From positions 3,512,501-3,576,500 of the forward strand of contig NC_092323.1 of NCBI RefSeq assembly GCF_036785885.1: 64,000 nt of DNA. The letters run 5' to 3'. Position 1 is the stretch's first letter, and each line of letters opens with the position of its first letter. This DNA comes from Coffea arabica. Lineage: Eukaryota > Streptophyta > Magnoliopsida > Gentianales > Rubiaceae. Positions 4,946 to 38,771 of this stretch are shown here, piece after piece. The notes under the pieces were generated by a model. It did no database searches, had not been told where the DNA came from, and saw only the letters and a list, made by a program, of their open reading frames with translations. The position numbers were made by a program, and so were the translations under genes.

Positions 4946-7091
<2,146 letters not shown>

Positions 7092-31979: not shown

Positions 31980-34900
31980 TCAAGTGTCATCCTCCTCGTT
32001 GCCATCCTCATCATCATCTTCCTCATCATCATCACCTTTTCCCTTAATTAAAGATGAGGAAATAGACATTAGACGCGGGCAGTAAAGGAAAGGAAATAAA
32101 AAGGCAAATGATATTTGCACTCTAGGCACTCCACACTTGCTCATTTTCGTTTAAAGTGACAAAAAGACCCATAACCTAGAATCCTTGACTATTTGAATAA
32201 CAAAATTGCCCCCAAAGGCATAGTAAATGCATAGAGGGGCAATTTCGTCTCTTTAAATAATTTATAGGTTTTTTGTGTCATTTCATTAACTGATAAGCGA
32301 AGATAGGGTGCAAGGAGCTTATCTTGGAGTGCCAATATCATTTGCCGTAAAAAATGAACTAAATTGTAACAGATTATAGAAAAATGTTACAAGCAGTTGT
32401 AGCAGTTGACAAATAGCACAGAAGCCAATATTTACAGCTCAAAAACAAGAAGGAGTCCATGCACCAAATACCACGAAACAGAGCTAACAGGAAGTGAAAC
32501 ACCAGAACTTCTCCTACTTCTGTATTGCCACCATAGCCAGAGTTATCTGACCTCTGCTTTCAAAGATAAGACCCAAGAGACTTAAATCTGTTTCTTATTT
32601 ACTACTTAGCATGTACTTCTTACAAAACACAACAGATGTCAGAATTGGAACAAAAAAGTGAAGAGAAGTCATGAAGGTACAAGTAAATTGGTAACCATCC
32701 ATATGACAACATCAAATAACAGAAAAGTGGCCTTTGATATGGATATTGGCAGCTTATTATAAAAGAAAGTGAAAACTAAAGAAAGCAGATTGGTGTTATA
32801 TGTCAACCTGGTCCTCTGAGTTCGTAACTAAATGATCACCAACTCAAGAAACAAATCTCAACTCTTGGATGAATATCCATAGAAGTTATGGTACTGATAA
32901 AATTGGAACTGGGGGACTAAAATTTAGTCAAATCCAGGAGAGAGGGTGCATGAGTTAGTAAATGAGAAGCTTTTCTAGGTTCTAAAGTGCCTGCCTGTTT
33001 CCATGGGTTCCACAAAATGTAAAAAAGCAAAAGCGTTGATTTATACCTCTTCATCATCCTCTTCTCCCTCGGAATCCTCTTCATCAGCTTCCTATCAAAT
33101 CAAAATATGAATTCTGTAAGCAAGGAGAAAGAGCTATAAATCAGAAAAAAGGAACAGTCAAAATGGATTTTACATTGTTGAAATATTTCAGAGGGTTTGG
33201 CCATAAATCCTCCTTAATTATCTCTGCCACCTGCATGTTTAAAGTAGATGACAGATAGAATGAGAACAGGGAAGAAACCATACTTCTTTATTCATCTAGA
33301 GCTACAAAGATCACAATAAAGTGATCATTAGAAGTAACAACTTGAAAGCCAGCCAAAAGTGTCAACCATATATATTACTACATTTTACCACAAACAAAAA
33401 TAGCTAATAAAGTTCTTATAATTGTATGGAGAATGAATGTGAAAAGGCTTCATAAATTCAACAAGTAATTACCTCATCATTAAGCCCCTCTACCTCAAGC
33501 GTATCTTTTTGTTGTGTTTCAGAAAACCAACTAAAGAAGCTGCATTGACAATGCCCAAAAAAAAAAAAAATGGTGAACTCTAGATCATACTTTCAGTTTA
33601 AGGGAAACATACAGGACCTTTAGTAGATAACTTATAGCTTTCAACAGGTAAGTGACATCAATTCATCAGATGGTCACAACAAGATAAAGGTGAGAAGCAT
33701 ATATGCAGATTTGCATGTGCTTAACAATTGGAAGACCATGAAGATTTTCCTCTTCACAATCACAATTGGACTTAAAATATAGTCCGGACTTGAGTTGCAG
33801 TTTCTAAAGAAGAGATTTTCACTTGGTCAATGCTCAGCTAGAATACTAAGCATAGCTATTCAAGCTAAAATGTCAGTCAACACCATGGTCAATGAAAAGC
33901 ATAATCAGCAGTTGGAGCTCAATATGTATCTACTATACATTAAACAACTTTTACAATCTAAAACATGCATGCAACAATGACGTTAACATCTCCCTAAATT
34001 CCTAACAGTTGGATAATTATTATCCTTAGCTCCATGTGGTCATCTATAAGTTGAAGATGCTAACATCACAAAGCGTATTTATTTTCCATGTCCAAAAAGC
34101 CAATCATCTGATATAGAGTCTAGGGAAAAATCTGAATAGAAATGCATTAATTAGCAGAAAATACCTGTCATCAGATGCTGGTCGTTTATTTCCTTTCTTT
34201 TCATGACTGCCTCCATTTGCAGCCCCCTTCAATTTTTTGAAGTTGTAGAATTCAAAATTATATACAATAAAGGATTCAAACTGCCCAAGAAGGAATATAT
34301 ATTCAAATTATTACCATGCCTTCCTTCCACTTGATAGCTGTACCAATTATCCTTGTTGTTCCTTCATCTAAGAAGATAAATGTCTTTGTCAGCTTCGTAT
34401 CTTCAAAATATGGGTTTTGCTTGAAATTCTGAAGATCAAAAGCAAGATTTCAGGTAAGAATACAAGTACAATACATAGATCAATAACCAGCCTGCAATGT
34501 CAATTGTCCATTTGTTTTTCTGAAGGATGAAAGTTTCACGAGTAAAAGAAGAAACACACAAATGTAATTGAGTAACCCGATTTCACATCCTTAAAATCCT
34601 CCACATCAAGCGAATCCAAATATTTGAAAATCTGCATAAGAAATAAATGTACAACCAAATAATCAGTGGCTAACATTCACTAAAGATGGTCAAGAAAAAA
34701 TAAATTTATCCTCCTATGCTTATATCAGGAGGGTAAATTGAATGGCAAACTAATCAGACCAAGTCAAAAGGTAAACTGAAAGGAAAATCCTTTGGACTCC
34801 CAACCAAAAATTTCCAATCCACTAAATTTCTAAGCACGTTGCATACCTTCTGATCCTCCTCATTCAACAGATCACCAAGCGCTGGATGACTCAAAAACTG

Positions 34901-37380
34901 CAGGAAAAAGTAAATTAATAAAAAATAAATAACTAAAAGGATCCCCTAATAAGTTTCAACTTCATTGAAATTAGAAAAGGGATGGCTTTGTAACTCACAG
35001 CAGTCAACCAAAAGTCAGGAATTGTCTTTATGATCTCGCTTCTTCGGACATAAACAGGCCTCCGTAATTCATTGTACTTCTGTTCAATTTCCAGTACTTT
35101 GTCACTGGCATCTTCATTTACCTGCAAAGAATAAGTCTTTTAGTCAAGCCCCACTTCCGCGCAAAGAATCCCAGGCAGGAAAGAATTAAGAGAAGAATTC
35201 ATCTGGAAGTGTCTAATCAACTTTTGTTTTTTTCTGTCTCCCTTATTTATTTAGCCATCTTTCCTAATTCCTGGGTGTCAATTCTTTACCATATCAGCAT
35301 ATATACTTGCCAGAAAATTTCCAGGTCCACATACATCATATCAAGATCAAACTAACTGGCTACATGTATAAACAATTCCCATCTTTGTATGTCTACATAA
35401 ATATATCTACTTACAAAAATCTACACAGAATGAAATAATTCAACAGCCTGTCTAACAGATCATAATATGATAAAGAAGACCTGATGGAAAGGCAAAAGGA
35501 TCCAATCCAAGACACGATTATGCATGCATAAATACATGTATTGATGTATGTCAGGGGGATCCAAAAACGTTCTTCAGCTCATCTTGGACATCCCTAACTT
35601 TCTTAGTTTTAGCAGAAAGTTCAGCACGCTGAACAGGATCTTCCTCATCGCTATCTCCATGAATGCTCGATTTCTTTCCAGGAAATGCAGCCATACTTTT
35701 GTTGGAGATAGTGAGGCAAATAGAAATTCTCAGGCCAAAAAATCTTGCGGGTTTGTGATTGTAAATAACTTGCACTTTCAGGAGAACATACTATTGGCAC
35801 ACAGAACAGGTGGATGGTGGATGTCAAGTCAAAAAAAGCAAGGTCAACATGTTTAAGTATGCTCCTTCAGATGTGCAAATTCAGGGAAGAAAAAATTTCA
35901 CATCTGTTATGAGCATCATTGTCCAACCATTCATCCTTTCAAATTTCAGCAAAAAAGAGTTAATGTATATATCTTTGCTAACATCTACAGTGTAAGAGTT
36001 AGCAGGAAGGAACTACATCAGTTTTCTCATATATTAACCTTGATTAACACCAAAAAAATGAGGCAACAACTACAAAAACATTATCAAGTACTCGCCCACT
36101 CCACAAACAATTTTTCCTTGTAGAAGACAGAAGTCAACATATTAACTAGCATCTGTACAAGGATCAAGGAAAAACAAATACTCCCTCCGTCCCACTTTGA
36201 TAATCTTGGTTCTTTTTTCACACAGTTTAAGAAAAAGTAGTTAACTTTGTTGAAACAATCAATTTAGGTAGCTATTTTCCTAAAATACCCTCACATTAAT
36301 TAGAGTACAACTTTATGGGAACTTGAATTGATGGTAAAAAAAGAATAAACTCTCGTTAAATGGGGTAAGTTTATAGTAACAACAACTTACATTGAACAAG
36401 GGTATTTTAAAAAAATTAAAATACAACTACATTCTTCAATTGGAAAGTGGACTACAATTTGGGACAGACGAAACAGGAAAACATGACTATCAAAGTGGGA
36501 CGGAGGGAGTACAAGAAGATTTTCACGTGCATAATTCTGTGCCTTCAAAAATTATCCTTTCCAACAAAAATAAAACTGCATACAAAGCCTTTTCCTCTTT
36601 ATTTCCATTCGTTGCACCGAAACACTACAACATTTTGCAAGGCAAACAGGGATCACCTTTTGTAGAAATAAACCGCTAGAAAAGTTATAATTGAGAGGAA
36701 GAAAAATTAAGTAGATATGTAGGGGGAGATGGGAAACAGAGGAGACCAAAACTAAAATCAAATTTTTTTAATTTTGCCAAGTAAAGGAAAAGTATTCATT
36801 AGAATATTAACCTAAAATGTGGTCTGTTTCCATCAAACTAAAAAGTACCTTTCGCCTGATAGGAGGGGATAAGGAGAAGTAACAATTGGAGGTGGGGGTA
36901 ATAAAAATTATATTGCTAATCTAATTAAAAACTATCAGAAGAAGCAAATGCAAGGCAAGGAGCTTCTTGTATCTGCAGCGATCAACAGATGAGTGTATAG
37001 AAGGACCAATTTGTACTTGCTTAAGCTCTAGCATCTAAATATCAGCCGTCCACAACTCAACCCAACCCTCCAATGTATTGACGTAAAAACCCTAGTGGCT
37101 CTCATCTATGACCATGCAGATGTTAGTAATTCCACGAACAAAATCCCAATATGTGAAACTAGTACTGGTTCATTCACGATAATGATGACAATTTTTTCTA
37201 ATAGAAAACTAGAAACGTTTAGTATAAATTATGCAAAAGGAAAAAAAAATATACCTTTTCAAGCTCGTCCTGGACTTCTTGAAGCTTCTCGATAGAGAGA
37301 ACAAGCTCGCCATCAATGGGATCGGAGTCTTCCTCCGCTGGAGCGGCCACCTTGGATTTCTTTCCTCGCTCAGCCACCAT
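31980..37380 (-). CDS. NRP1: NAP1-related protein (NRP/SET-type histone chaperone), 259 aa
   Basis: A nuclear H2A-H2B chaperone of the SET/NAP family. In Arabidopsis NRP1 and NRP2 act in root growth, genome stability and nucleosome dynamics. Ten minus-strand coding exons: 37255-37380, 34999-35121, 34847-34897, 34560-34631, 34315-34428, 34165-34226, 33473-33539, 33174-33230, 33047-33091 and 31980-32042. These sum to 780 nt and 259 residues (Arabidopsis about 256). Visible landmarks: an N-terminal dimerisation helix ([16 protein letters not shown] then [20 protein letters not shown]), [45 protein letters not shown], and [16 protein letters not shown]. An acidic tail ([15 protein letters not shown], then [17 protein letters not shown]) follows. 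A telo-box (AAACCCTA) lies at 37404-37411 in the leader. Intron 1 carries a duplicated first exon and a Stowaway element. I cannot tell NRP1 from NRP2. Confidence 0.95.
32103..32346. mobile_element. 244-bp MITE in the last NRP intron
   Basis: The left end, GGCAAATGATATTTGCACTC, and the inverse of the right end, GGCAAATGATATTGGCACTC, match over 20 bp with one difference. It is non-coding, with no clear target duplication. It lies inside the intron between NRP exons 9 and 10. Confidence 0.7.
35569..35694 (-). other. Candidate alternative first exon of NRP (exon 1b)
   Basis: An ATG at 35694 opens 42 codons ending before a possible GT donor at 35568. The real exon 1 (37255-37380) is also exactly 126 nt, 42 codons and phase 0. 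Translated without gaps, 15 of 42 positions are identical, including M1, A3, GKKS at 6-9, EL at 25-26 and VQDEL at 36-40. Joining to exon 2 (35121) keeps the frame. The donor (AAC|GTTTTTGG) is weak, and no clear TATA box was found upstream. It could be a working alternative promoter and exon, or a decaying duplicate. Confidence 0.6.
36181..36509. mobile_element. Stowaway (Tc1/mariner) MITE in NRP intron 1
   Basis: The element begins CTCCCTCCGTCCCACTTTGA and ends with the exact inverse TCAAAGTGGGACGGAGGGAG, flanked on both sides by TA. The CTCCCTCCGTCCC terminus and TA target are diagnostic of Stowaway elements. It is 329 bp and non-coding. Confidence 0.92.
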
Positions 37381-37411: not shown

Positions 37412-38771
37412 GGCGGGTTGTAGGCAGTTAAGCTTAAGCTTCAACCCCTGGATTGGATTGGTGGAATGAGGAGTGGGGATTGTATGAAGCGGCAGAGTGA
37501 AGGGAGTCCAACTTCTTTTCGAGGGCAGAGACAACAATTAAATGAAAATATGTGGGCAAATGTTTTTAAGTTACTTGTTCACCATTTTGTGTCTAAGCTC
37601 TGCTAGTACTCAATCGAAGCTAATTTATGGTCACAAACATTCTCTTACCATCAATGAAAGGTTTTGGACATATATATACTGTAAATCTTGCATAAAATTG
37701 AAGGTGTATACATTATCGCGGTTGGATATATGATATATATACATAATTTAAATTTCAAATTCAAATTCAAATAATCTGTCATGAATTTTATGATGAAAGT
37801 GCATATACTGTTAATACAAAAGAACGGCGCAAAAACTATGCTAATATAAAAAACAACAGGATGAAGATATCAGAACCAACAATGAGCACCAACAACATCA
37901 TCAGATCCTCGAATTAAGTCTAATAAGATAAATCTAATTAGTAGTTAGAAAATAATTTTTATTACGAATGTCTAACTCTAAGATTGTAACTACCTCTTTC
38001 AAACATAAGGGCGATATAATATATCCTAGCATACTCATTGGAGTTTTTTTTCGCCTCTTTATATGATCATATAGTATAATCATGTAATAGTATCTCTTTT
38101 TTTTTTTCAGTGAAGGATCAATAGTAATTGTAAGTTTTGTCGGGATGATTCCTTCGGAAAAAAAAAATAATGACTTGTGTTTTAGTCCTCTATGTTATGG
38201 CCTCTTCAATTGATTCTTTATTGTTTAGATTTGACTTAATTTTCAGATATTCTTCTGACTTATTTCATTTTTAGTTCCCGTTGGCGTTGTATTTGAATGC
38301 TAATTGATCCTTAAATCCGTATTGACTTTTTTTGTAGTATGCTTTGAGGCGTCCTCCTTCAAAATCAAGCATAAAAGATGCATGGATCCTATGTATATAT
38401 CGTGGAGTCATTGGCATGCTAATCAAGAAGCCAAACTATGCAATTTCGGTACTCAGCTCTATTCTGTTATTAATCGTTAGTTCCCCACTTCTTTTTTTTT
38501 TTTTTTGGAGAGGGAGAGCAGTAGAATAATAAGATTAATAGAGATAATAATATTTCTCTCAAATAGTTTGTTTTATTGAAGGGAACAAAACCCAAAATAA
38601 GCACAACATGAGTTGATCTAGCAAATCTATGAGTGGATGGTATGCTTGGAACTTTCACATAACCACAGTGGTAATCAGTAAGGTCTAAACGTATACTATG
38701 GTGATGACTCCAGCCCAAGCACCCTTCCAATTATTTATGATCCATCATATCGATCTCTCGCAGTATCCATC
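37412..38771. other. Intergenic region between NRP and the LTP gene
   Basis: No gene was found. It is AT-rich with several homopolymer runs. The high-coordinate end is the 3' flank of the minus-strand LTP gene. The NRP promoter must lie in the low-coordinate end, where a GGATTGG / CCAATCC word near 37451 is a possible CCAAT element; this is tentative. Confidence 0.45.

Follow-up and report, generated by a model that had tools for sequence, protein, structure and literature searches.

A candidate alternative first exon, homologous to exon 1, within intron 1 of an NRP/SET-type histone chaperone gene of Coffea arabica

Intron 1 of an NRP/SET-type histone chaperone gene carries an ATG followed by 41 codons, here called exon 1b, which the evidence supports as an old homologous copy of exon 1 that ends in phase with exon 2. 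We propose that exon 1b is a minor type I (mutually exclusive) alternative first exon of the gene, and give this reading a probability of roughly 0.55; the balance tips slightly towards its being used at present. The gene lies in the window, by which we mean the whole stretch of 64,000 nucleotides that was analysed.

The host gene and the frame in intron 1

The host gene occupies the minus strand from about 37380 to 33047. Its exon 1-5 product matched AtNRP2 (6JQV, 3e-72), AtNRP1 (5DAY, 7.2e-70) and human SET (2E50, 1.1e-39) in the PDB; the plant NRPs are thus its nearest solved relatives, with SET after them, and AtNRP1 and AtNRP2 (5DAY, 7C7X, 6JQV) are its homologues. A test protein made of exons 1-5 minus the final codon matched the Pfam NAP family (PF00956) with E = 9.9e-28 when it began with exon 1 and 6.3e-27 when exon 1b was substituted. 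In a genome-wide scan with PF00956, done exon by exon, nine stretches were found on contigs C7, C8, C11 and C12, and the host gene was missed because its exons are short. The coding part of exon 1 (37255..37380, 42 codons or 126 nt) ends at the donor AAG/GTATAT, the slash marking the splice boundary, and is followed by intron 1 (35122..37254, 2133 nt), which contains exon 1b, and by exon 2 (34999..35121, acceptor ttgcag/GTAAAT), the partner that both first exons would share. The remaining modelled exons span 33047..34897, all on the minus strand: exon 3 (34897-34847), exon 4 (34631-34560), exon 5 (34428-34315), exon 6 (34226-34165), exon 7 (33539-33473), exon 8 (33230-33174) and exon 9 (33091-33047). 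Boundaries of this nine-exon model were drawn by eye, guided by splice sites and the translation, and its last exon and 3' end are provisional.

Intron 1 also holds, upstream of exon 1b at 36181-36509, an element of about 329 bp with inverted ends CTCCCTCCGTCCC and TA at both borders, a MITE that we take to be of the Stowaway type. It is absent from the second copy of the locus, on contig C13, and a search with 36182-36509 gave, among the 40 scored of 2600 candidates, at least 39 more copies of nearly full length (94-96% identity). Elsewhere in the window, a 184-aa open frame at 4967-5521 has a long in-frame leader ahead of a start that, we presume, resembles that of alpha-tubulin; the leader is probably 5' UTR read through. 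Matches to plastid rbcL fragments occur on C3, C4, C5, C6, C9, C11, C13, C16 and C20, that on C6 falling below the family cut-off, and full-length rbcL was found on C131 (127,500 bp), which seems to be the plastid genome. In comparison with known chains, the plastid rbcL falls close to the form I chains of plants.

The original prediction described an ATG-initiated 42-codon frame in intron 1, of the same length and phase as exon 1 and with 15 of 42 residues identical to it without gaps. The frame is as described: the minus strand from 35694 to 35569 translates from methionine without a stop, exon 1 and exon 1b both end in phase 0, and exon 2 starts at 35121. Between the exon 1b ATG and the stop upstream of exon 1b there is no other in-frame ATG, and the start has A at -3 and G at +4, a favourable context. 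The 15 identities, including GKKS at residues 6-9 and VQDEL at 36-40, were likewise recovered. Since K, E and D abound in both peptides, chance or shared composition was considered as the source of the likeness. In 100,000 composition-preserving residue shuffles, none reached 15 identities and none reached the observed BLOSUM62 score of 66; when exon 1 was scored against all 42-codon frames of the window, at every offset and on both strands, it gave 203 with itself, 66 with exon 1b and 24 with the next frame. Chance likeness is thus refuted in practice. A gapped alignment, in which each sequence takes a gap of one residue and DP pairs with DP, is slightly better than the ungapped one and scores 68, the maximum in 20,000 shuffles being 47. 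The length match fared less well than the identities: both exons are indeed 126 nt, but their equal length counts for little and is partly luck, because the better alignment needs gaps and the first exon of the presumed paralogue has 48 codons.

The 42-residue peptide of exon 1b alone gave no match in Pfam, and among its 12 PDB matches (E up to 10) none was a NAP-family protein. The best of the 12 were IgG-binding protein A repeats, at a summed E of 4.7e-7; no single stretch was significant, and these matches were taken as chance.

Codon-level signature and age of exon 1b

Exon 1 and exon 1b resemble each other as coding sequences do. In the ungapped alignment, 25, 23 and 12 of 42 bases are identical at codon positions 1, 2 and 3, i.e., 48/84 at positions 1 and 2 and 12/42 at position 3 (Fisher p = 0.003); in the gapped alignment the counts are 27, 27 and 12 of 41. 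Part of this pattern must stem from the side of exon 1, since the comparison partner is itself constrained. The base composition of exon 1b bears on the same question, with G+C of 0.62 (26/42), 0.36 and 0.33 at the three positions, compared with 0.54, 0.30 and 0.41 in the modelled CDS. Its first-position value of 0.62 exceeds the 0.34 of the gene's introns, exon 1b included (p = 0.0002). When the host-gene introns without exon 1b were cut into 2464 overlapping 126-nt segments, each read in one frame, 102 were open and 1% reached the G+C of exon 1b.

The frame that is conserved is the one that begins at the exon 1b ATG, and this observation weighs on another way in which the segment might be used. 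A pyrimidine-rich stretch and an AG directly precede the ATG, so that inclusion from this AG between exons 1 and 2, as a cassette or poison exon, could be envisaged; the included segment would be 127 nt, would shift the frame, would run into a stop when continued from exon 1, and would lower expression. It is the ATG frame and not the shifted one that is conserved, and such an exon would face the same weak donor as a first exon would, which makes this account very improbable.

Third positions tell a different story from first positions. At 0.333, the third-position G+C of exon 1b is at intron level (modelled CDS, 0.414), which fits either silent sites without constraint or recent decay. This is one of the observations in favour of a fossil, that is, a once-used alternative first exon that recently lost its donor, and perhaps its promoter, and is now drifting while its frame is still open. 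The first-position G+C and a frame without visible decay speak against a fossil, as does simulation. When exon 1 was allowed to decay neutrally by 0.5 substitutions per site, the frame and its ATG stayed open in about 4.5% of runs, and were both open and indel-free in 0.25% of runs at 0.05 indels per substitution and in 0/4000 at 0.1. Decay ever since the duplication is thus very unlikely in the simulation, which used assumed rates and today's exon 1 as the start, and which counted any indel as a break although the gapped alignment holds two one-codon gaps. Recent decay is a different matter, and here the simulation favours the fossil: after 0.1 neutral substitutions per site 40% of runs were open, and 20% or 12% were open and indel-free at 0.05 and 0.1 indels per substitution, respectively, so that 12 to 40% of runs survive, depending on the indel rate. 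Exon 1b probably coded for protein over most of its existence, and the signals of constraint that we read from it would fit a working exon and a recently lost one alike.

The duplication appears to be old, since third positions are near saturation. Exon 1 matches exon 1b at 12/41 third positions and the first exon of the presumed NRP paralogue at 15/42, and identical codons make up 7/16 and 11/30, respectively, of those that specify the same residue. Across exons 2-5, 55/120 third positions and 9/28 four-fold sites agree between the two NRP genes. In the first exons the four-fold sites that match, 3/7 for exon 1 and exon 1b, 0/5 for the paralogue and exon 1b and 4/12 for exon 1 and the paralogue, are too few for dating. 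By these comparisons exon 1b would not be detectably younger than the NRP gene pair, and saturation prevents a date.

The paralogue emerged from a genome search with exon 1, which returned exon 1 itself, the C13 copy and one further gene, present on C7 and C8. No exon 1b was found in that gene, a point against exon 1b as a working alternative first exon. A search of the genome with exon 1b (E up to 10) found no copies beyond the host locus and C13, and in both copies of the paralogue's intron 1 a six-frame local alignment gave nothing clear as an exon 1b relic, with a best score of 27, exon 1 giving 24 in the same test.

Splice donors and the two copies of the locus

Exon 1b ends at AAC/GTTTTTGG (donor at 35561..35568, minus strand), which had been called weak in the original prediction and is in fact very poor. 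A GT does follow the exon, and its U1 duplex of -0.9 kcal/mol is like that of a GT taken at random; of the 400 GTs in the examined stretch, 75% pair with U1 at least as well. All nine modelled donors of the host gene do better (-1.6 to -7.2 kcal/mol), including the two weak ones at -1.6 and -1.9. Because the donor is so weak, present use of exon 1b is unproven, and the same weakness, with GTTTTT identical in both copies of the locus, is what a fossil would be expected to display. In a survey of alternative first exons, the mean donor score was 5.89 for minor type I exons and 8.00 for constitutive exons in Arabidopsis, and 7.75 for both major and minor type I exons and 9.31 for constitutive exons in rice, these scores being averages on the GeneSplicer scale that are not comparable with the U1 energies given here (PMC2174465). 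Such averages suggest that a poor donor is compatible with use of an exon, and they are not proof for the exon 1b donor.

A better donor lies inside the exon. The inner GT at AAA/GTTAGGGA (35591..35598, minus strand; AAA/GTTAGG, cut at 35598) is also in phase 0 and pairs with U1 at -3.6 kcal/mol, compared with -0.9 at the end donor; its use would remove the last 10 codons of exon 1b and give a shorter N-terminus. However, the best conserved block, VQDEL, lies past this site, which argues that exon 1b was selected at its full length, and we consider splicing through the inner donor improbable.

The second copy of the host locus is found on C13 at about 97-98% identity, and the assembly seems to hold both haplotypes, the C13 locus being the second. 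The exon 1b frame is open on C13 as well (2/2 locus copies), with no indel inside and one base changed. That change is missense, L26V, at a leucine that exon 1 and the paralogue retain, and a missense polymorphism at a conserved position is a further point in favour of a fossil. Exon 1 on C13 has two base differences, both silent. Between the two copies the CDS differs at 6/717 aligned bases, exon 1b at 1/126, the remainder of intron 1 at 36/1672 and all other introns together at 18/1484; the density in exon 1b resembles that of the CDS and is not significantly lower than that of intron 1 (p = 0.24). The frame that would read through the exon 1b donor is not kept, since a T/G run directly after the donor shows a difference of one base between the copies. 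Taken with the composition and the simulations, these observations leave the fossil, the chief rival to our reading, a real possibility, although we would sooner bet against it. The C13 copy also has about 2.15 kb of unmatched sequence (L003 5637-7790) where the window has about 144 bp (37679-37822), at a distance of some 300 bp upstream from where exon 1 starts with its ATG; the two copies thus differ in structure in what is likely the promoter region.

A replaced N-terminus and comparison with known systems

If exon 1b is a minor alternative first exon, exon 1 would have been duplicated about when this plant's two NRP genes parted, or before. Transcription would start a second time inside intron 1, from a putative promoter upstream of 35694, translation would begin at exon 1b's own ATG, and splicing at the end donor to exon 2 would yield an NRP with its first 42 residues replaced. 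With so weak a donor, this form would be a minor one, perhaps limited to certain tissues or conditions. The original prediction placed the exchange wholly ahead of the dimerisation helix, and this did not hold. The AtNRP2 helix is given as residues 14-73 in one place of the structure paper and as 51 residues long in another (PMC6630525). On either figure it starts within the part encoded by exon 1, since exon 1 aligns with the AtNRP2 chain from query residue 16 onward. Because exon 1 reaches into the dimerisation helix, the swap would alter the helix itself: the replaced part would comprise the tail and the first portion of the helix. At the positions of the exon 1 hydrophobics L26, L28, I30, L33, V36 and L40, exon 1b has L, A28, T30, V, V and L, i.e., four of six hydrophobic, and a helix start with fewer core hydrophobics might change dimer stability or the choice of partner. 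The human TAF-I alpha and beta first exons lie mostly before the helix and, to our knowledge, neither is an obvious copy of the other; exon 1 and exon 1b, in contrast, are homologous and both reach into it.

Alternative first exons are known in plants (PMC2174465) and, as TAF-I alpha and beta, in SET (PMC2636835). In the plant survey, about half of the alternative first exons in Arabidopsis, and about 19% in rice, possibly change the N-terminus, and its type I exons are, like exon 1b as proposed here, mutually exclusive first exons with common downstream exons and donors weaker than constitutive ones (PMC2174465). The main text of that survey makes no mention of histone, nucleosome, homologous or any word beginning with duplicat-, and its supplementary gene lists could include an NRP (PMC2174465); the main text of the AtNRP2 structure paper makes no mention of exon or splice (PMC6630525). 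Among the matches listed in our literature searches, which were short parts of long lists, there was no alternative first exon in a plant NRP gene.

Were exon 1b a fossil, comparison among related species could put a date on how such an alternative first exon was lost. Were it in use, it would show that poor splice signals can conceal coding first exons within introns. A stronger version of our reading, in which the NRP gene makes two chaperones from homologous, exclusive first exons that exchange the beginning of the dimerisation helix, the choice of start site sets the dimers that form, and exon duplication has produced a counterpart of TAF-I alpha and beta, strikes us as doubtful. The likeness to TAF-I that had been drawn for this gene is fair as a way of working rather than as a claim of common descent. 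Human SET belongs to the same protein family, and its TAF-I alpha and beta differ by alternative first exons and were both seen by RT-PCR (PMC2636835), whereas exon 1b is a candidate at the sequence level. In sum, if exon 1b is used, the gene would encode two forms of a plant histone chaperone, one of them hidden until now and changed in the dimer-forming helix itself, and would offer a plant parallel to TAF-I alpha and beta.
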